From: Halodesulfovibrio sp. MK-HDV
GTDB lineage: Bacteria; Desulfobacterota; Desulfovibrionia; Desulfovibrionales; Desulfovibrionaceae
Reading direction: 5' to 3'
DNA: 64,000 bases
Assembly: GCF_009914765.1 (NCBI RefSeq)
Contig: NZ_WYDS01000021.1
Span: 1-64,000, forward strand
Under the pieces are notes generated by a model, which saw nothing but the letters and a program-made list of their open reading frames with translations, did no database searches and had not been told where the DNA came from. The number at the start of each line of letters is the position of its first letter. Within the stretch, counting starts at the first letter, position 1. A program made the position numbers and the translations under genes. Of the stretch, positions 24,007-31,487 are shown in pieces.

Positions 24007-25611
24007 CTACGAGCAGTTCTGCCAGCAAAGCTGGATGTGCTCTTTAGCGAGGCTGCGGGAAACAAGACTTACCCCTACAGCCAATGCAATAGATATCGGC
24101 AGAGCAACTACGTTCGGGTCAACCCACTGGAGGAGAAACATGGTGCTGCCCGGAGCTGCATCTGCAACAAGTGTTACTTTTCCAAACAGTGTTTCACACA
24201 GGCCGATAGCCGCTGCTTCTTTTTTATGGATGAACAGCATCCACAACATTGAAACGGTAAATCCACCGACTATGGAAACCTTGGCTCCAGTCTTTGTCAT
24301 ACCTTTCCAGTAAAGACCAAAAACGTATGCAGGTAAGAATGTTGCGCCGCTTAATCCAAAGAAGAACGCTGTAGCGCGTGCAACAATGGATGGAGGAAGC
24401 AGCCATGCCCATACAAGGGTGGCAATGATAGTAGCAACAATACCGAGTTGGCTGATGGATGATGCGCTCAGTTTGTTTTTACTACGCATGATGTTTCTTG
24501 AAACATCATGCGCAAGAGAGGTACCACCAATGTGGAACTGGCTGGAGAGGGTGGACATGGCTGCCGCAAACATAGCCAGCAAAAACATGGCAGAGAACCA
24601 AGGCGGCATAACTTTTTCAATAAAAATAGGGACAATTTTATCAAGGTTGCCATCAGCCATGTGAATGCTGATTTTACCAAACTGGTTGAAGAAAATTGCA
24701 TTGGAAAGTGCGCCTACAACGTAAACGACGCCAATGGTGAGCAGGATAAAAATGGAACCGTACAGAACAGCTCGGTTTAATTCTTTATCGCTGGAAACGG
24801 TCATGAATCGAACGGCAAGCTGTGGCTGAGCAAGTACGCCGATACCTACGCCGTAAACAATGGTTGTGTAGATAACGAGCCATAATGGTGAGCCTGTTTC
24901 TGTGCCTTGCGTCCAGCCGATAATTCCACCTTTCTGCAATGACTCAGGAACAAGATTTGCCATAGAAGTCAAAGCCTCATGTGCAGGTACAACGCCACCG
25001 AGCATGTAGTAGGTGTAGCCCAGTAAGAAGACCATCATGCCAACCATAATTGTTCCCTGAAATGCGTCTGTGTACATAACGGCTTTCATGCCGCCAGTAA
25101 TAACGTAAAGGGATAAGATGGCAGTAATACCTATAAGCATCCACTCGTATGGTAATCCTAAAGAAACTTCTGTCATGCGGCAGATACCGGTTAAAACCGC
25201 AGCAGCGTATACCGGAATGAAGAAGAAAATGATGCCGCCGGAAAAGCCTTGAATAAATTTTGAATGGTAGCGTTTGCCAAGCAGTTCCGGAAAGGTATGA
25301 CAGTTAAGAACTAAGCCCATGCGACGGGTGCGTTTGCCCAAAAACACCATCGCGATAAAAATTCCCACAAAAATATTTAAGAATGCCAGCCACAGAAGCG
25401 ACATGCCGAACATTGCCGCGACGCCACCAAAGCCGATAATGGCTGAAGTGGAAATAAAGGTTGCACCGTACGACATAGCCATAACGAATGGGTTAACAGA
25501 ACGTCCGGCGAGCATGTAGTCTCCGGCGTTTTTTGTTTCCTTCCATCCTTTCCAGCCTAAGTAGAAGACGATCCCGAAGTAGAGCAGTGAAGTAATCAGT
25601 TTGACGGCCAT
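24007..25611 (-). CDS. Sodium:solute symporter (SSS family), predicted tyrosine importer
   Basis: A 534-residue SSS protein with about 13 membrane helices; SSS transporters use the Na+ gradient to import solutes. It has GRSVNPFVMAMSYGATFIST (Na+-site helix), ITGGMKAVMYTDAFQGTIM and ALSTLSSQ as MSTLSSQFHIGG. It is nearly identical, by eye about four residues in five, to the protein at 26557-28152. It follows its small accessory gene by 14 bp with GGAGAAATACGAC before the ATG. Family membership gives only a general substrate class. The tyrosine assignment is inferred from the Tyr-rich attenuator leader upstream, on the logic that importers are induced when the cognate tRNA is uncharged. Confidence 0.9.
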   Translation of the reverse strand: MAVKLITSLLYFGIVFYLGWKGWKETKNAGDYMLAGRSVNPFVMAMSYGATFISTSAIIGFGGVAAMFGMSLLWLAFLNIFVGIFIAMVFLGKRTRRMGLVLNCHTFPELLGKRYHSKFIQGFSGGIIFFFIPVYAAAVLTGICRMTEVSLGLPYEWMLIGITAILSLYVITGGMKAVMYTDAFQGTIMVGMMVFLLGYTYYMLGGVVPAHEALTSMANLVPESLQKGGIIGWTQGTETGSPLWLVIYTTIVYGVGIGVLAQPQLAVRFMTVSSDKELNRAVLYGSIFILLTIGVVYVVGALSNAIFFNQFGKISIHMADGNLDKIVPIFIEKVMPPWFSAMFLLAMFAAAMSTLSSQFHIGGTSLAHDVSRNIMRSKNKLSASSISQLGIVATIIATLVWAWLLPPSIVARATAFFFGLSGATFLPAYVFGLYWKGMTKTGAKVSIVGGFTVSMLWMLFIHKKEAAAIGLCETLFGKVTLVADAAPGSTMFLLQWVDPNVVALPISIALAVGVSLVSRSLAKEHIQLCWQNCS

Positions 25612-25625
25612 GTCGTATTTCTCCG

Positions 25626-25787
25626 TTACTTATCGGTGCTTTCCTGCACCAACGATTCAATTTTTACTGTGTCCGGCGTTCCCGCGTTGTTCCAATTCGC
25701 AATGCCGTACGCAACACAGCCGATGGTGGATATGATGCAAAGCCAGTAAGGCAAAGCAGTCTCGATACTTCCGAGTCCTAACAGCAT
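25626..25787 (-). CDS. Symporter small accessory protein
   Basis: A 53-residue protein starting MLLGLGSIETALPYWLCIIS with one membrane helix (about 12-30, through IGCVAYGI) and an NWNNAGTPDTVK tail. AAAAGGAGGACATT precedes the ATG. Small single-helix proteins of this type are encoded directly upstream of certain SSS symporters and are thought to be accessory subunits. The gene lies between the attenuator terminator and the symporter, so its expression is under the same control. A near-identical copy serves the second symporter. Confidence 0.88.
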   Translation of the reverse strand: MLLGLGSIETALPYWLCIISTIGCVAYGIANWNNAGTPDTVKIESLVQESTDK

Positions 25788-25804: not shown

Positions 25805-25835
25805 TAAAAAAAACCGCAGGCTCTCACCTGCGGTT
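25805..25835 (-). terminator. Attenuator terminator of symporter cassette 1
   Basis: On the minus strand AACCGCAGG pairs with CCTGCGGTT (9 bp, loop TGAGAG), followed by seven to eight T, 18 nt before the accessory gene. The competing antiterminator pairs CCTGCGG inside the leader-peptide gene (plus coordinates 25885-25891) with the first arm CCGCAGG (25827-25833), extended by TCGGT/ACCGA. Between them lies the hairpin TGCGT/ACGCA. Confidence 0.88.
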
Positions 25836-25865
25836 CGTCGGTATAATTTCCATAATCTGTGCGTC

Positions 25866-25958
25866 TTACACGCACTCAACCGATCCGCAGGTCTTGATGA
25901 CGCGGTAACCATAATATGCATAAAAATAGCTATTCATATGGCGGTTGATTGTTTCCAT
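25866..25958 (-). CDS. Tyrosine-rich attenuator leader peptide (30 residues)
   Basis: An ORF of 30 codons whose centre is NSYFYAYYGYR, with five tyrosines and one phenylalanine in nine residues, ending CGSVECV then TAA. The codons for CGS contain the antiterminator strand. A ribosome held on the Tyr codons would leave that strand free to pair with the terminator arm, whereas one that reaches the stop would cover it. Thus low Tyr-tRNA gives read-through into the accessory and symporter genes. A second in-frame ATG at 25937 would also include all Tyr codons. The paralogous leader at 28417 has the same plan with Phe instead. Confidence 0.85.
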   Translation of the reverse strand: METINRHMNSYFYAYYGYRVIKTCGSVECV

Positions 25959-25965
25959 AGGTCAA

Positions 25966-25995
25966 TTACTACACGTTATAAGACAAAAATGTCAA
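25966..25995 (-). promoter_or_regulatory. Probable leader promoter, cassette 1
   Basis: TTGACA (25990-25995) and, 18 bp later, TAGTAA (25966-25971). The -35 lies in a palindrome-like block (GACAAAAATGTC, plus strand 25982-25993) followed by AAGTTCG that is conserved at the other cassette. If used, transcription would begin about at the ATG of the leader ORF, implying a leaderless or nearly leaderless message. The -10 is weak. Confidence 0.4.
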
Positions 25996-26049: not shown

Positions 26050-26205
26050 GGGTGATGCCTCCGGCGGCTCTTCGAGGATTCTCCGAAGGACAAGGGCGCA
26101 CCCCAAGGGCACTTGTTCCCGTACGGCTCGAAGATCGCCTACGGTTGACTGGCGCTGCACCTGCACCCGCAAGAGGCTCGCCCCTTAACCCCCTTTTATT
26201 CGCGT
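26050..26205 (-). repeat. Dispersed GC-rich intergenic repeat, copy 2 (left, inverted)
   Basis: Contains GCCTCCGGCGGCTCTTCGAG, an AAGGGCGCACCCC block, CTGCACCCGCAAG and ending CCCTTTTATTCGCG. It is arranged in opposite orientation to the copy at 26410-26510, whose reverse complement gives GGCTCTTTGAGAATTCTTCG and CTGCACCCGCAAGGGGG. The two arms flank the element at 26227-26386. Confidence 0.6.
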
Positions 26206-26226
26206 TCCAATTTTCTAAATCTCATG

Positions 26227-26386
26227 TTGGAAGCCGCGAATAAGCTAACTTTCCGTTATCAATAAAGAACGGACTACTCTGTTTATGGGAGCAGTCCGTT
26301 CAGTACGTAGCAATATATTTTCAATCAGTAAGTGCTTTATGACAAATGTTTCCACAAAGGAAAGTTAGCTAGTTCGCGGCTTCCAA
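26227..26386. mobile_element. 160-bp element with 28-bp terminal inverted repeats (MITE-like)
   Basis: The left end (26227-26254, beginning TTGGAAGCCGCGAA) and right end (26359-26386, ending TTCGCGGCTTCCAA) are inverted repeats matching at 26 of 28 positions. Inside is a hairpin GAACGGACT/AGTCCGTTC (26267-26301). There is no ORF. It occupies the 598-bp gap between the two symporter cassettes and could be a non-autonomous transposable element or a large cruciform left by recombination. Confidence 0.45.
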
Positions 26387-26409
26387 GGTGAACAATTACG
26401 GGTTGTTTC

Positions 26410-26510
26410 GCGAGTAAAAAGGGTCAAGGGGCGTCCCCCTTGCGGGTGCAGGGCAGCGCCCTTGCCCCTCGGAGAGTAGTCTTCGAAGAATTCTCAAAGA
26501 GCCGTCGGAG
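26410..26510 (+). repeat. Dispersed GC-rich intergenic repeat, copy 3 (right)
   Basis: Contains GGTCAAGGGGCGTCCCCCTT, GCGGGTGCAGGGCAGCGCCC, TTGCCCCTCGGAGAGT and CTTCGAAG, and is nearly the same as the copy at 53503. It follows the stop of the second symporter by about 45 bp. Confidence 0.65.
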
Positions 26511-26556
26511 AAAAACACAGGAGCCATCTCCTCACCCACCTACACGTCAGCCGTAT

Positions 26557-28152
26557 TTAATTATTCTGCCAGCAAAGCTGAATATGATCTTCAGCAAGAC
26601 TGCGAGATACGAGGCTTACGACTACAGCTATAGTAATGGCCACTGGCAACGCAACTACGTTCGGGTCAACCCACTGGAGCAGGAACATTGTGCTACCCGG
26701 TGCAGCGTCTGCTACGAGTGTGGCTTTACCGAAGAGCGCTTTGCAGAGGCCGATTGCTACGGCTTCTTTTTTGTGGATAAAGAGCATCCAGAGCATGGAT
26801 ACGGTGAAACCGCCGACCATGGATGTTTTTGCTCCGGCTTTGGTCATGCCTTTCCAGTAGAGTCCGAAGACGTATGCTGGAAGGAATGCTGCACCTGTGA
26901 GCCCGAAGAAGAACGCGGTTGCGCGTGCAACGATGGACGGAGGAAGTAGCCATGCCCAGATGAGTGTGGCAAGAATTGTTGCGATAATACCGAGCTGGTT
27001 CACTTGTTTGGAATCGCGTTTTGTCGGCATGACTACCTGAGATACATCATGTGCGAGTGATGTACCGCCAATGTGGAATTGGCTTGAAAGTGTAGACATG
27101 GCAGCGGCAAACATGGCGAGAAGGAACGCTGCGGAGAACCATGGCGGCATAATGCTTTCGATGAAGACTGGAATAATTTTGTCGAGGTTTCCGCCAGCCA
27201 TTTGAATGCTGATCTTGCCGAACTGATCGTGGAAGATAGCATTGGAAAGCGCGCCTACGACAAAGATTACGAACACTGTGAGCAGAAGGAAAATTGCACC
27301 GTAGAGGACAGCTCTGTTGAGCTCTTTGTCACTGGCTACAGTCATGAAACGAACTGCAAGCTGCGGCTGTGCCAATACGCCGATACCTACGCCGTAGACG
27401 AGGGTGGTGTAGATAACGAGCCAGAGCGGTGTGCCTTGTGCTGAGCCTTGTGTCCAGCCAAGGATTCCGCCTTTTTGAAGTGCTTCAGGCATGAGATGTG
27501 CCATGGCTGTGAGCTTTTCATGCGCGGGAATAACTCCGCCGAGCAGATAATATGTGTACCCGAGCAGGAAGACCATCATGGCTGCCATAATTGTTCCCTG
27601 AAACGCATCAGTGTACATAACGGCTTTCATGCCGCCGGTGATTACGTAGAGGGAAAGAATGGCGGTAATACCGATGAGCATCCATTCGTATGGTAAGCCG
27701 AGAGACACCTCAGTCATACGGCAGATCCCTGTGAGTACAGCGGCTGCGTAGACTGGGATGAAGAAAAAGATGATTCCGCCGGAGAAGGACTGCACAAATT
27801 TAGAATTGTAGCGTTTACCTAACAGTTCCGGGAACGTGTGACAGTTGAGGGTAAGCCCCATGCGGCGTGTACGTTTGCCAAGGAATACCATCGCGATGAA
27901 TACACCCACGAAGATGGTAAGGAAGGCAAGCCAGAGCAGCGGCATGCCGAACATTGCTGCCACACCACCGAAGCCGATGATGGCGGAGGTGGATACGAAT
28001 GTGGCACCATATGACATGGCCATAATGAACGGGTTAACGGAGCGGCCAGCAAGCATGTAGTCGCTTGCGCCCTTGGTCTCCTTCCAGCCTTTCCAGCCCA
28101 GATAAAAAACTGCTGCAAAGTACAGCATTGCGGTAATGAGTTTGACGGCCAC
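26557..28152 (-). CDS. Sodium:solute symporter (SSS family), predicted phenylalanine importer
   Basis: A 531-residue SSS protein with the same helices and motifs as its neighbour (GRSVNPFIMAMSYGATFVST, MSTLSSQFHIGG, ATAFFFGLTGAAFLPAYVFG split over helices 9-10). Differences concentrate in helix ends and the loop after residue 395. It is 14 bp downstream of its own accessory gene. The Phe-rich attenuator leader upstream predicts phenylalanine as the physiological substrate. Together the two cassettes look like a tandem duplication of leader, accessory and symporter, about 2.3 kb, that has since split specificity; the specificity split is inferred, not shown. Confidence 0.9.
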   Translation of the reverse strand: MAVKLITAMLYFAAVFYLGWKGWKETKGASDYMLAGRSVNPFIMAMSYGATFVSTSAIIGFGGVAAMFGMPLLWLAFLTIFVGVFIAMVFLGKRTRRMGLTLNCHTFPELLGKRYNSKFVQSFSGGIIFFFIPVYAAAVLTGICRMTEVSLGLPYEWMLIGITAILSLYVITGGMKAVMYTDAFQGTIMAAMMVFLLGYTYYLLGGVIPAHEKLTAMAHLMPEALQKGGILGWTQGSAQGTPLWLVIYTTLVYGVGIGVLAQPQLAVRFMTVASDKELNRAVLYGAIFLLLTVFVIFVVGALSNAIFHDQFGKISIQMAGGNLDKIIPVFIESIMPPWFSAAFLLAMFAAAMSTLSSQFHIGGTSLAHDVSQVVMPTKRDSKQVNQLGIIATILATLIWAWLLPPSIVARATAFFFGLTGAAFLPAYVFGLYWKGMTKAGAKTSMVGGFTVSMLWMLFIHKKEAVAIGLCKALFGKATLVADAAPGSTMFLLQWVDPNVVALPVAITIAVVVSLVSRSLAEDHIQLCWQNN

Positions 28153-28166
28153 GTCAGATTCCCCTC

Positions 28167-28334
28167 TTATTTGTTCGTGCAGTCTTGCACGATTGATTCA
28201 ACTTCAGCTGTAACGGTGTCAGGCTCGCCTGCGTTGTTCCAGTTCTTAATTCCGTAAGCAACGCAACCAATTGTAGATAGGATGCAAAGCCAGTACGGCA
28301 GTGCGGTTTCAATGCTTCCTAGTCCTAGTAACAT
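28167..28334 (-). CDS. Symporter small accessory protein
   Basis: A 55-residue single-helix protein, MLLGLGSIETALPYWLCILS then IGCVAYGIKNWNNAG, almost identical to the 53-residue protein of the other cassette, with a slightly longer tail (TAEVESIVQDCTNK). The start at 28334 follows GGGGAAG; a longer frame to 28394 runs through the attenuator terminator and is rejected. It is 14 bp upstream of its symporter. Confidence 0.88.
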   Translation of the reverse strand: MLLGLGSIETALPYWLCILSTIGCVAYGIKNWNNAGEPDTVTAEVESIVQDCTNK

Positions 28335-28359: not shown

Positions 28360-28390
28360 AAAAAAAAACCGCAAGCTTTCGCCTGCGGTT
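28360..28390 (-). terminator. Attenuator terminator of symporter cassette 2
   Basis: AACCGCAGGC pairs with GCTTGCGGTT around GAAA (10 bp, one G-T pair), followed by at least eight T, 25 nt before the accessory gene. The antiterminator pairs CCTGCGG (plus 28442-28448, in the leader ORF) with CCGCAGG (28382-28388), extended by ATCGGT/ACCGAT; the inner hairpin is TGTGTT/AACACA. Confidence 0.88.
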
Positions 28391-28416
28391 TCATCGGTGT
28401 ATAGAGCTATCTTGTG

Positions 28417-28506
28417 TTACGTTCGAACACACTCAACCGATCCGCAGGCCTGAATGCCGCGGAAACCAAAAAACGCAAAAAAGGTATTGGTGTTGAGTTT
28501 GTTCAT
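28417..28506 (-). CDS. Phenylalanine-rich attenuator leader peptide (29 residues)
   Basis: An ORF of 29 codons with a good ribosome site (AAAAGGAACCC before ATG). Its centre is TFFAFFGFR, five phenylalanines in nine residues, positioned exactly where the other leader has tyrosines, and it ends CGSVECVRT then TAA. The Phe codons precede the antiterminator strand by about 15 nt, the distance needed for a stalled ribosome to leave that strand free. By analogy with pheL/pheM-type attenuators, shortage of Phe-tRNA should allow transcription into the accessory and symporter genes. Confidence 0.88.
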   Translation of the reverse strand: MNKLNTNTFFAFFGFRGIQACGSVECVRT

Positions 28507-28514
28507 GGGTTCCT

Positions 28515-28542
28515 TTTACAAGTTGTTCGACAAAATTGTCAA
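28515..28542 (-). promoter_or_regulatory. Probable leader promoter, cassette 2
   Basis: TTGACA (28537-28542), 16 bp, TGTAAA (28515-28520). The -35 overlaps a perfect palindrome GACAAAATTGTC (28529-28540), and the same block with AAGTTCG is present at cassette 1. Only 54 bp separate the betaine-receptor stop from this leader ORF. The palindrome could be a repressor site or simply a conserved -35. Confidence 0.45.
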
Positions 28543-28559: not shown

Positions 28560-29483
28560 TTAGAATTTTGTTTCTATTATATCCGCAGCCCGTTCGCCGT
28601 TTGCCCCTTTTAGATTACCTAACCATTGTCGAACAACGCTAAGATTACCTTTAATCCATGCTGTAGCAGTTTCTTCAACAGTCTGTTTTTTCAATGAAAC
28701 ATCGTATGTCCATTTCCCTTGTGTGAGCTTACTTACGTTGAATCGTGAGAGGATCATGAATGCGTCTGGGTATTCTGTTTTAATGTCAGTACGGATAAGG
28801 GTGTTGATGGTGCTTTTTGAAATAAGTTTGGTGGAGCCGGGCATGGCTTTCAGGTAACGCATGTCGAGAGTCAGGTTCATCCAGTGTGGTTCCCAGCAGC
28901 TGAATACAATCCATTTTTTTTCTTTGAAGGCTTTAATGACGTCGTCGAGCATTTTGTCTACACGTTCCCCTTTTTGCTTCCAGCTGCCGAGTCCTTCAAA
29001 ATCTTTTTTTATGAGATCTTCGACAAGAATATACATGCCGGAGGTTGGTTCAATTGTGTAGATGGTTGAATCAAATTTTTTAGCATTCGGTGCAAGGTCG
29101 GCAATGTTCTTAACGCCTTCAGCGCTAACGTATCCCGGAACACAGAGGCCGGTGTGAGTGTTTTGAACATTAACGCCAGCTATGCGTATTGTTTTTTTCT
29201 TTAAAAGCGGCTCAAGAAGCATGTCCTGTGTGGGAAGCCATGCGCTCATAAATACGTCAACCTTTCCGTCCCCAAGAGCTTTGTAGACTTCACTTGCATT
29301 CATGGAAATAGTGGAGGTTTCGTATCCGACTGCTTCAAGTATTTGGGAGGCAACTTCTGTTTTTACCATTGCACCGGGCCATGGCGGTACTGCAAATCTT
29401 ATAGCTGCTGATGCCGTTGAAGCGGGAACAGCAGATGCCACAAATGCCACTGCAAATAGAAATGTAATTAGTTGCTTATACAT
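28560..29483 (-). CDS. Glycine betaine/proline-type ABC substrate-binding protein (ProX/OpuAC), orphan
   Basis: A 307-residue periplasmic receptor. From MYKQLITFLFAVAFVASAVP at 29483 (GAGGATACATT upstream) it has a signal peptide cleaved after about ASA, then IRFAVPPWPGAMVKTEVASQ, DVFMSAWLPTQDMLLE and VFSCWEPHWMNLTLDMRYL, the pattern of OpuAC proteins that bind quaternary amines in an aromatic cage. A longer frame to 29630 runs into the ATPase gene and has no signal. No ProV/ProW partners are present. It begins 29 bp after the ATPase stop, so it may be cotranscribed with the export genes. Confidence 0.88.
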   Translation of the reverse strand: MYKQLITFLFAVAFVASAVPASTASAAIRFAVPPWPGAMVKTEVASQILEAVGYETSTISMNASEVYKALGDGKVDVFMSAWLPTQDMLLEPLLKKKTIRIAGVNVQNTHTGLCVPGYVSAEGVKNIADLAPNAKKFDSTIYTIEPTSGMYILVEDLIKKDFEGLGSWKQKGERVDKMLDDVIKAFKEKKWIVFSCWEPHWMNLTLDMRYLKAMPGSTKLISKSTINTLIRTDIKTEYPDAFMILSRFNVSKLTQGKWTYDVSLKKQTVEETATAWIKGNLSVVRQWLGNLKGANGERAADIIETKF

Positions 29484-29511
29484 AATGTATCCTCGCTTGT
29501 TGTTATTTATT

Positions 29512-30237
29512 TTATGAAACTGTCTGCGGGCTTTTCTTGCTGCGGACAGATTCTTGTTCTTGGTCGCTAATGACTTCGCCGTCTTTAAATACAATGCGGC
29601 GTCTGGCGCTGTTTGCTGTGAGCGGATCATGCGTAACGAGTATTATGGTTTTTCCGGTTTCGTTAATCTTTTCAAACAGGTCGAGAATTTCGTTACTGGT
29701 ATGTGTGTCCAGCTGTCCTGTGGGCTCATCTGCCAGTAGCAGAGGTGGATTATTGAACATCGCACGCGCCAGTGCCACACGTTGTTGTTGTCCACCGGAA
29801 AGGCTGGATGGCTTAAAGTTGATTCGATCTCCGAGGCCTACTGAGTCGAGAAGTTCTTCAGCGCGTTGGCGTATACGAGTTTGTTTCCCACGTCGGTAGA
29901 GACCTGGGAGCATAACATTCTCAGCAGCAGTGGCATATGGAATGAGATAGAAATTTTGGAAGACAATGCCGGTGAGTTTGTTTCGGGCGTCACTTTGTTC
30001 GTTGTCAGTCATCTTTGCTGTGTCTGTACCATCAAGAAAATATGCACCGGCAGTGGGGCGATCGAGTAGCGCAAGGAGATGGAGCAAGGTGGATTTACCC
30101 GATCCGGAAGTTCCTTGTATCGCAACAAGTTCTCCGTGATTGATGATCATATCAAGAGGCTTAACCGCACTGATAGTGAGGCCACCTTGAGAAAAGGTTC
30201 GGGTTAACCCTTTTGTTTCAATTACTGGCTTGTTCAT
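29512..30237 (-). CDS. MacB/LolD-type ABC transporter ATPase
   Basis: A 241-residue ATPase with Walker A GTSGSGKST (around residue 40), Q-loop IVFQNFYLIPY, signature LSGGQQQRVALARA, Walker B PLLLADEPTGQLD and the H-loop VTHD. It belongs to the LolD/MacB group that drives FtsX-type permeases. The HlyD adaptor is 5 bp upstream. The matching permeases are not next to it but at 21085-23561, beyond the betaine receptor and the symporter cassettes. Confidence 0.92.
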   Translation of the reverse strand: MNKPVIETKGLTRTFSQGGLTISAVKPLDMIINHGELVAIQGTSGSGKSTLLHLLALLDRPTAGAYFLDGTDTAKMTDNEQSDARNKLTGIVFQNFYLIPYATAAENVMLPGLYRRGKQTRIRQRAEELLDSVGLGDRINFKPSSLSGGQQQRVALARAMFNNPPLLLADEPTGQLDTHTSNEILDLFEKINETGKTIILVTHDPLTANSARRRIVFKDGEVISDQEQESVRSKKSPQTVS

Positions 30238-30242
30238 ATTGT

Positions 30243-31487
30243 TTACTTGTCGTCTTCAGTTTCTATGGCTGGAATGATGACGCGCGTGGCAACCTTATCG
30301 CCTTCCTCAACACCTGATATAATTTCGGTGTTGTTTTCTCCCATAATTCCGAGTGTTGGTGAAACTGGCGTTGCGTTGTCGTCAGCATCAACGATATAAA
30401 TATACTTTTTACCATCTACCCATTTGATTGCGTCATTGGGAACGACCAGTACGCTATCAATTTCCTTGGTTATGATGGAGCATTGAGTTGTCATTTTTGG
30501 TCGGAGCTGGAGAGCCGTTTTTGGCGAAAGTGGTACAAGGGCTTGATAGTAGACAATGTTGTCCTGCACGACAGCTTCGGGATAAATGTCAGCAACCATT
30601 CCTCTGAAAATCACATTTGGGTACGCATCAACCGTGAAGTTCACCGCCATGCCGCGAGTTACGGTTCCAACATCTGTTTCGTCGACATAGATCAGCATTT
30701 CAAGACGGGTAGGGTCGAGGATGGTAATGAGGTTTGCAACCTGTAAACCTGCTACTACGGTCTCGCCTTCCTGGGCTGTGACCTGACTGACAAGGCCGGT
30801 TATGGGAGCATAAATTTCTGTATAGCTGATCTGAATACTCTCGTTTTCCAACTGCGCTTGTGCGGAAGCAACAGTTTCAACTGCATTAATGATCGCTGTG
30901 ACATAGTTTTCTTCCAAAAGGTGAAGAGCATCTTCATTTGCTTTGGCCTGAGTTACTGCCAACACATAATTTTGATAGGCTTCATCAAGAGCAGATTGTT
31001 CCAGTACGCCAGTGGCCACAAGTGCTGTATTGCGCTGCCATGTGAGGTACGTGAAGCGTTGTTCAGCAAGCGAGCCATTAAGTGTTTCCTGAGCCTGTTC
31101 TATTTGAATGGGGAATGTTTTGTTAACATTAGCCAGATCTGCCTGTGCCTGTCTCAATGCTGCTTCTTGAACCAGATATTGCGCCCGTTGTTCTCTGTCG
31201 TCGATTTTTGCAATGAGCACACCTTTTTCCACATTATCACCGACTTGAACGAGCATACGTTCAATAACGCCAGTTGCGCGGGTACCAGTTTTTACAATGG
31301 CACCAACCTGCGGCTGAATGATGCCTGTGGATTTCAGCTGCACAGTTACACTGCCACGCTGCGCCTCGGCGACTCGCAATACGCGAGGGGAGCTGCTGTT
31401 TTGTTGCGCAACAAAGAACCATATTGCTCCAAACAGGAGCAATATAGCTATGAGCACAGATGGAAGAATAGCAGTCCGTTTACGCAT
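30243..31487 (-). CDS. HlyD/MacA-type periplasmic adaptor (membrane fusion protein)
   Basis: A 414-residue adaptor: N-terminal membrane anchor (about 8-27, LPSVLIAILLLFGAIWFF), lipoyl half-motifs (GVIERMLVQVGDNVEKGVLI and YAPITGLVSQVTAQEGETVV), a long alpha-helical hairpin between them (about 100-205), then beta-barrel and membrane-proximal domains (LEMLIYVDETDVGTVTRGM). Such proteins bridge an inner-membrane transporter and an outer-membrane TolC-like channel; no tolC is in the window. It starts the operon with the ATPase. AAAAGGA lies upstream of the ATG. Confidence 0.92.
   Translation of the reverse strand: MRKRTAILPSVLIAILLLFGAIWFFVAQQNSSSPRVLRVAEAQRGSVTVQLKSTGIIQPQVGAIVKTGTRATGVIERMLVQVGDNVEKGVLIAKIDDREQRAQYLVQEAALRQAQADLANVNKTFPIQIEQAQETLNGSLAEQRFTYLTWQRNTALVATGVLEQSALDEAYQNYVLAVTQAKANEDALHLLEENYVTAIINAVETVASAQAQLENESIQISYTEIYAPITGLVSQVTAQEGETVVAGLQVANLITILDPTRLEMLIYVDETDVGTVTRGMAVNFTVDAYPNVIFRGMVADIYPEAVVQDNIVYYQALVPLSPKTALQLRPKMTTQCSIITKEIDSVLVVPNDAIKWVDGKKYIYIVDADDNATPVSPTLGIMGENNTEIISGVEEGDKVATRVIIPAIETEDDK

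Follow-up and report, generated by a model that had tools for sequence, protein, structure and literature searches.

An operon for a Na+:solute symporter in the 64,000-nucleotide stretch of Halodesulfovibrio DNA analysed here (the window) is preceded by a short open reading frame (ORF) rich in phenylalanine codons and by an intrinsic terminator, and we conclude that this operon is very probably controlled by phenylalanine through ribosome-mediated attenuation. That the element is a leader-peptide attenuator, a variant of an established mechanism rather than a new kind, is well supported. Judging from the leader, the symporter is reasonably likely to import phenylalanine, perhaps with other aromatics. 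A preliminary description of this DNA had placed a Phe leader and attenuator ahead of the symporter operon, and comparison with related loci bore this out: a leader is present in 65 of 84 distinct upstream regions, a terminator follows 64 of the 65 leaders, and leader and terminator are complementary in 64 of 64.

The cassette lies on the minus strand at 28542-26557, in the order leader ORF, terminator, accessory gene and symporter gene. Minus-strand positions 28506-28417 translate to MNKLNTNTFFAFFGFRGIQACGSVECVRT, 29 codons followed by a stop, with five Phe at codons 9, 10, 12, 13 and 15, exactly as had been claimed. A TTGACA -35 box (28537-28542), assigned from its sequence and from the spacing in the family, lies 36 nt upstream of the leader ATG. 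Region 1 (28483-28506) extends from the start codon through the last codon ahead of the Phe run and is complementary to the end of the ORF. It is followed by the putative sensing codons TTT TTT GCG TTT TTT GGT TTC, five of them Phe (28462-28482), and by region 2, GCCTGCGG (28442-28449), which lies within the ORF and would form the 5' arm of the antiterminator; its core is 22 nt from the leader stop (3-28 nt in the family, 16 being commonest). Another 24 nt separate the stop from a strong hairpin, the intrinsic terminator formed by regions 3 and 4 (28360-28392), which has 12 pairs, a GAAA loop, a stem at 28392-28365 and a T run. Region 3, CCGCAGGC (28381-28388), is part of the terminator 5' arm, common to antiterminator and terminator, and fully complementary to region 2. 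The duplex of regions 1 and 2 has a calculated energy of -16.4 kcal/mol, matched by 4 of 200 shuffles, and the Phe codons sit in the loop of this hairpin, so that a ribosome stalled there would open it. Beyond the terminator lie the genes for a small symporter accessory protein of 55 residues (28167-28334; NF045580, 49.8 bits, cut-off 35) and for the symporter, 531 residues with a GTG start (26557-28152), both also on the minus strand. On the other side of the cassette, at 28560-31487 of the minus strand, a gene for a choline/betaine-type periplasmic binding protein (OpuAC) adjoins genes for a MacB/LolD-like ATPase and a MacA-like adaptor, without a betaine permease.

Under the mechanism we propose, transcription would start at the leader ATG or directly beside it, with a ribosome trailing RNA polymerase through the 29-codon leader. 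When charged tRNA-Phe is scarce, the ribosome would stall on the Phe codons and cover region 1; region 2 would then be unmasked and pair with region 3, the terminator would be blocked, and the accessory and symporter genes would be transcribed. When Phe is plentiful, the ribosome would reach the stop, region 2 would be covered or re-masked by region 1, and the 3:4 terminator would end transcription; without translation, 1:2 plus 3:4 would form, again with termination. Four-segment attenuation of this type and an aromatic amino acid as the cargo, taken jointly, make a reading of the sequence that we regard as quite probable.

Relatives of the symporter at E <= 1e-120 were found in 71 of 348 genomes of the order, and relatives from named genomes were added, the best of which, from H. 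spirochaetisodalis and another Halodesulfovibrio, match the Phe symporter at 96%. Deduplication of the upstream regions by their last 250 nt, with a maximum of two copies kept per locus, reduced 99 to 84 distinct ones (L033-L035 duplicate genomes already in the set, and the upstream of L053 is identical to that of L036). A leader was defined as an ORF holding at least five aromatic residues in 10 codons and positioned upstream of the symporter operon. The leaders so found in the 65 upstreams are Phe-rich, or Tyr-rich in tandem copies, and the terminators, whose 5' arm carries CCGCAGGC or a variant, lie 20-33 nt past the leader stop. The 19 upstreams lacking a leader include two cut by contig ends (L083 and L086) and one that belongs to the second gene of a tandem (L012); in the other 16, inspected by eye, there is no leader before the operon. 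L037-L039, which the tree labels as other groups, lack a leader; in L037, a 15-codon TTG-start ORF with five aromatics lies between the accessory gene and the symporter. By eye, several leaderless upstreams are also without an accessory gene (L013, L021, L027, L082, L085 and L087). Two genomes, G297 and G289, each have one leaderless and one Phe-leader symporter copy.

The symporter is a member of the SSS family (PF00474, SSF, 185.2 bits, cut-off 22.8). It falls just below the cut-off of NCBIfam TIGR00813 (183.3 against 184), and the Tyr copy described below scores 184.5. Its predicted fold (pLDDT 81.4) is that of SSS carriers, the best matches being CHT1, NIS, SMCT1, SGLT and SiaT at Z of about 29-37. 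These carry choline, iodide, monocarboxylates, sugar and sialate, and the fold names no substrate. Among substrate-specific family models, none scores above its cut-off for the symporter, and the solved relatives assign it no substrate either. The proline symporter PutP (185.8 against 515.5 bits) and the pantothenate symporter PanF (166 against 328.05 bits) were considered and rejected on their NCBIfam scores. No genes of aromatic metabolism were recognised near the Phe symporter in the window, and at 30 loci the recurrent neighbours are mostly confined to a single genus and by eye include none of aromatic metabolism.

An alternative to phenylalanine as the cargo accepts Phe-sensing attenuation as real and supposes a substrate otherwise linked to Phe (e.g. 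phenylpyruvate, phenylacetate or another aromatic acid), or a broad range of amino acids. Such a carrier would suit a family whose members span many kinds of solute, as the best fold matches illustrate, and for which the substrate-specific models gave no call; a broad range would also fit the statement, in the accessible part of Wels et al. (PMC2494555), that single-permease carriers often have a wider range than their regulator implies. Against it, a leader with Phe only, and mostly Tyr in the copy, is best explained by a carrier dedicated to the amino acid in question, and related leaders follow the end products of the genes downstream of them, which leads us to consider this alternative rather unlikely, although it is the one that survives best.

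The strongest indirect argument for a Phe-only function comes from those related leaders. A covariance model trained on 36 symporter leaders alone matches at least 259 of the 348 genomes at E <= 1e-6, the E-values being rough; the 'class' and 'order' searches each covered 348 genomes, and every class match listed lies within the same order. In the window's own genome the two cassettes take the top two ranks (66.5 and 59.3 bits), followed in third place by a site before an aromatic-biosynthesis cluster (43.2 bits), and nine lower-scoring matches, on inspection, have no leader ORF of this type. A match to the terminator pattern at C18 of this genome was likewise inspected and rejected, there being no such leader. 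The aromatic cluster encodes ADTH synthase, dehydroquinate synthase II, prephenate dehydratase, AroA, TrpG and TrpD, as well as a TrpE-like protein that scores under the curated cut-off; a further ORF was read as TyrA without a model match. The cluster's leader (G000:C2:28628-28735, minus strand, locus L101/L102) is MNAIFANPAHIETNFYFWFFFSYGKARGRFSGAFV, which has Phe, Tyr and Trp together and is followed by a terminator.

Twenty sites were fetched from among the best model matches listed, mostly chosen away from known symporter genes; 19 precede a gene for the first enzyme, ADTH synthase, and the last (L174) is a leader of the symporter type situated at the end of a contig. Under one definition of the aromatic run, Trp is in the run of 29 of 32 full-cluster leaders, 0 of 13 leaders of stand-alone ADTH synthase genes and 0 of 65 symporter leaders, and Tyr in that of 32 of 32, 4 of 13 and 19 of 65, respectively. 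The cluster set had 34 rows, two of which are second tandem copies without a leader, and two further rows were left unassigned; among stand-alone ADTH synthase genes, 2 of 15 have no leader. The cluster and stand-alone leaders were in part chosen by the model, which cannot alone create the contrast in Trp between the classes. Stand-alone ADTH synthase leaders without Trp, mostly with Phe runs, occur in several genera (stand-alone leaders: L114, L115, L157-L162, L164, L167, L169, L175 and L176), as if the enzyme were an isozyme of the first aromatic step that responds to Phe. The leader seems, then, to respond to the end products made by the genes that follow it, and by the same token a Phe-only leader would mark a Phe-only function. 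Cluster and symporter leaders are alike in the ACGxG after the run and in the shape of the terminator, which suggests, without proving, a common origin. We somewhat favour the wider view that a single Desulfovibrionales attenuator module, often on transcripts starting at the ATG, spread over the aromatic regulon with exchangeable codons: Phe, Tyr and Trp at the cluster, Phe at the stand-alone first enzyme and at the symporter, and Tyr at the duplicate symporter, where, once the gene had been duplicated, changes at four aligned Phe codons would have altered the amino acid that is sensed.

That duplicate belongs to a second cassette of like build, about 2.5 kb beyond the first, at 25995-24007 of the minus strand, in which Tyr codons replace most of the Phe codons. 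Its leader reads MNSYFYAYYGYRVIKTCGSVECV up to the stop if begun at the shorter start, 25937, and METINRHMNSYFYAYYGYRVIKTCGSVECV, 30 codons, if begun at the ATG at 25958, 21 nt farther upstream (25866-25958 with the stop). The latter start is the likelier, since a TTGACA -35 box (25990-25995, assigned from sequence and the family pattern) lies 37 nt ahead of it, near the 36 nt of the Phe leader. A terminator, found as for the Phe cassette (25811-25836), an accessory protein of 53 residues (25626-25787; NF045580, 47.8 bits, cut-off 35) and a symporter 85% identical to that of the Phe cassette (24007-25611) follow, all on the minus strand. The gap between the cassettes, at 26050-26530, resembles to the eye a lengthy, imperfect inverted repeat whose ends are GC-rich, possibly a small mobile element.

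In the aligned codons, ACC TTT TTT GCG TTT TTT GGT TTC CGC of the Phe copy faces TAT TTT TAT GCA TAT TAT GGT TAC CGC of the Tyr copy, so that four of the five Phe positions now code for Tyr, and one extra Tyr has been gained. The C-terminal end, CGSVECV, is identical in the two leaders, and region 2 (ACCTGCGG) and region 3 (CCGCAGGT) of the Tyr copy have both been altered together relative to the Phe copy, a G in region 2 and C in region 3 of the Phe copy corresponding to A and T in the Tyr copy as a compensated pair. The preliminary description had pointed to this shared end, to the alternative stems and to the two cassettes as duplicates with a codon change; the ends do match, the stems are complementary in the Phe copy with both partners changed in the Tyr copy, and the duplication agrees with the aligned codons and with the grouping in the tree described next. 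Most simply, the symporter of the Tyr cassette would import tyrosine.

A tree of the symporters was built by a quick method from 81 rows, in which the Tyr copies of G005 and G009 are absent. The leader-bearing symporters fall in one part of it (67 rows, 63 with a leader; the branch has a modest support of 82 in this quick tree), and most leaderless ones in other parts. The four Tyr symporters included form a group beside Phe symporters from their own Halodesulfovibrio subclade. Because this Tyr group is nested in a part of the tree where nearly all other leaders are Phe-rich, the Phe leader is probably the older state and the Tyr copy a duplicate derived within Halodesulfovibrio. Between the Phe and Tyr symporter groups, 31 alignment columns, one of which is a gap, are fixed differently; the residue commoner in relatives is found in the Phe copy at 13, in the Tyr copy at 10, and is ambiguous at 8. 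These columns show no one-sided shift and do not bear out the preliminary suggestion that substrate and regulation diverged together, nor can they be read as a switch of substrate. The two most striking columns, 294 and 297, were not placed in a known binding site by an SGLT-type structure alignment, judged by eye.

The densest 10-codon windows of the 65 leaders, 650 codons in all, contain 414 Phe codons (28.5% of them TTC), 49 Tyr codons and 12 Leu codons of the type CTN, with no Trp codon and no TTA or TTG. Phe is within this window in 65 of 65 leaders, and the aromatic run includes at least one Tyr in 19 of 65 and Trp in 0 of 65, a tabulation over related loci that agrees with the initial view of the leader; Trp does occur elsewhere in the ORF, outside the run, in 16 of 65. 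Among the 65, leaders with more Tyr than Phe are restricted to the downstream tandem copy of six Halodesulfovibrio genomes. One mixed leader outside those genomes, L026 of the distant genome G068 (SFYFYGYYFFGRY), has alternating Phe and Tyr codons and is a possible dual sensor; its run can also pair with a stretch ahead of the terminator to form a very long A/U-rich hairpin.

These counts bear on whether the U-rich run might be an RNA element, for instance a tract for pausing, slippage or binding, or the peptide a small functional protein, with the Phe codons a by-product. Runs rich in TTT and short hydrophobic peptides are what such an element or protein could look like, and the C-terminal ACG/CGSVECV motif has the appearance of conservation at the peptide level, but the pairing of region 2 with the terminator accounts for that motif, the paralogue has TAT and TAC at the same positions, interrupting the U run, and more than a quarter of the Phe codons are TTC. 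A U-rich RNA, moreover, would not avoid TTA and TTG, so that the composition points to selection on Phe codons and not on a U-rich tract, and we judge the by-product explanation very unlikely.

The alternative stems of the RNA were examined across the family. The tests of regions 1 and 2 omit L079, in which no terminator was found, and that of region 1 also omits the leader without a -35 box. Region 2, GCCTGCGG or a variant, is complementary to the 5' arm of the terminator in all 64 leaders (score 16-23 of 24); none of 60 shuffles matched this in 40 of the 64, and at least one shuffle equalled it in 24. Pairs were counted in an alignment of 36 of the 65 leaders, in which 93.2% of the terminator pairs are formed, with changes on both sides at 6 of 11 pairs. 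By the measure 'further pair types' the terminator does not exceed shuffles, 464 of 500 of which score as high, and in 21 of the 36 sequences one inner pair does not form. The antiterminator core is 96.2% formed, against 95.1% in shuffles, with changes on both sides at 2 of 8 pairs (4 cells), covariation that is thin because this stretch hardly varies.

Set against 200 shuffles, the duplex of regions 1 and 2 ranks within the best 5% for 41 of 63 leaders and outside it for 22. The window's Phe leader is among the 41; the window's Tyr leader (L002) is not, its duplex being no better than shuffles (102 of 200 as good), and of the six Tyr leaders solely L032 is in the best 5%. Hence a masking segment is recognised in the Phe leader (4 of 200) and at 41 of 63 loci, not in the window's Tyr leader, while the other sequence features of a ribosome-mediated attenuator, namely clustered cognate codons directly upstream, a terminator before the first gene and a competing antiterminator, are all found. 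No Rfam family, leader families included, reached its gathering score in the window or at six other loci; seven matches at E up to 10 were all below gathering score and none was a leader family, so a known Rfam element was rejected.

A TTGAC -35 box lies 35-38 nt ahead of an in-frame start codon in 64 of the 65 leaders. At seven other 6-nt offset windows it does so in 0-8 of 65, and the number expected from shuffled upstreams is 7.2. The base immediately before the start codon is a pyrimidine in 52 of these 64, and a Shine-Dalgarno-like motif is found ahead of 10 of the 64 starts; the Phe leader in the window has AAAGGA. The -10 element is weak and shows little conservation, and the promoter of the Phe leader is missed by a generic promoter scan. 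The spacing of the -35 box predicts a transcript start at the ATG, and transcription probably begins there or within a base or two, giving an mRNA without a 5' leader ahead of the leader ORF. Examined in the same way, 31 of 43 ADTH synthase leaders have the same spacing, the one in the window's own genome not being among them.

The Phe leader at this one locus would not have been decisive, since an ORF with at least five aromatics in 10 codons turns up in 8 of 400 dinucleotide shuffles of its 260-nt upstream stretch and in 99 of 2000 pieces of 260 nt taken at random from the window. It is conservation that, to our reading of the sequences, settles the matter: that a T-rich intergenic stretch yielded a Phe-codon ORF by chance ahead of an ordinary terminator, as these single-locus frequencies might allow, has a negligible probability given leaders in 65 of 84 upstreams, the fixed promoter distance in 64 of 65 and the terminator in 64 of 65.

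Among the open-access papers listed we found no leader-peptide attenuator described for this order and no account of the present element, although a prior mention in subscription journals is possible. The main text of a survey of premature terminators, as far as it was available, mentions neither phenylalanine nor Desulfo- (PMC2965389), and a mutant fitness study of D. vulgaris, in its accessible part, has Phe as a weakly used nitrogen source with no gene specifically important for its use (PMC10102598), which counts against the present reading. The present leaders offer a substrate prediction that can be read from sequence for a clade of SSS symporters left nameless by substrate-specific family models, and they make up an attenuator family without an Rfam entry that precedes genes for transport as well as for biosynthesis, within an order of sulfate reducers. 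A single window moreover displays a paralogous pair whose leaders differ in the regulatory amino acid, Tyr having replaced Phe at four aligned codons, together with a compensated change in the RNA stems.

Attenuation on Phe codons is a textbook case for E. coli pheA, with its pheL leader. The present element is like pheL/pheA in its Phe-rich leader ORF, its mutually exclusive antiterminator and terminator and the sensing of Phe; unlike pheA, a Na+:solute symporter and an accessory protein lie downstream in place of prephenate dehydratase, and unlike pheL, the core of region 2 is inside the ORF, ahead of the stop. The trpL leader of Sinorhizobium meliloti has Trp codons and, unlike these leaders, serves the trp operon. 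T-box RNAs read tRNA directly, whereas here a translated leader ORF would do the sensing. The uORFC-13-1 motif, known before aroF from Acholeplasma and environmental sequences (24 representatives; PMC8632094), is similar in having a short uORF with one or more Phe codons, then a terminator and a gene of the aromatic pathway, but is confined to aroF, and the accessible part of its description includes neither a transporter nor copies that differ in amino acid. As in S. meliloti trpL, where the RNA is stated, in the part of the paper available, to begin with the ATG of the leader ORF (PMC7298713), the transcript here would start at the ATG, a feature known there and predicted from promoter spacing here. 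Finally, T-box control in Firmicutes has been used, according to the accessible text of Wels et al. (2008, PMC2494555), to predict the substrates of amino-acid transporters, and in the same manner we use an amino-acid-specific regulator to predict the cargo of the symporter.
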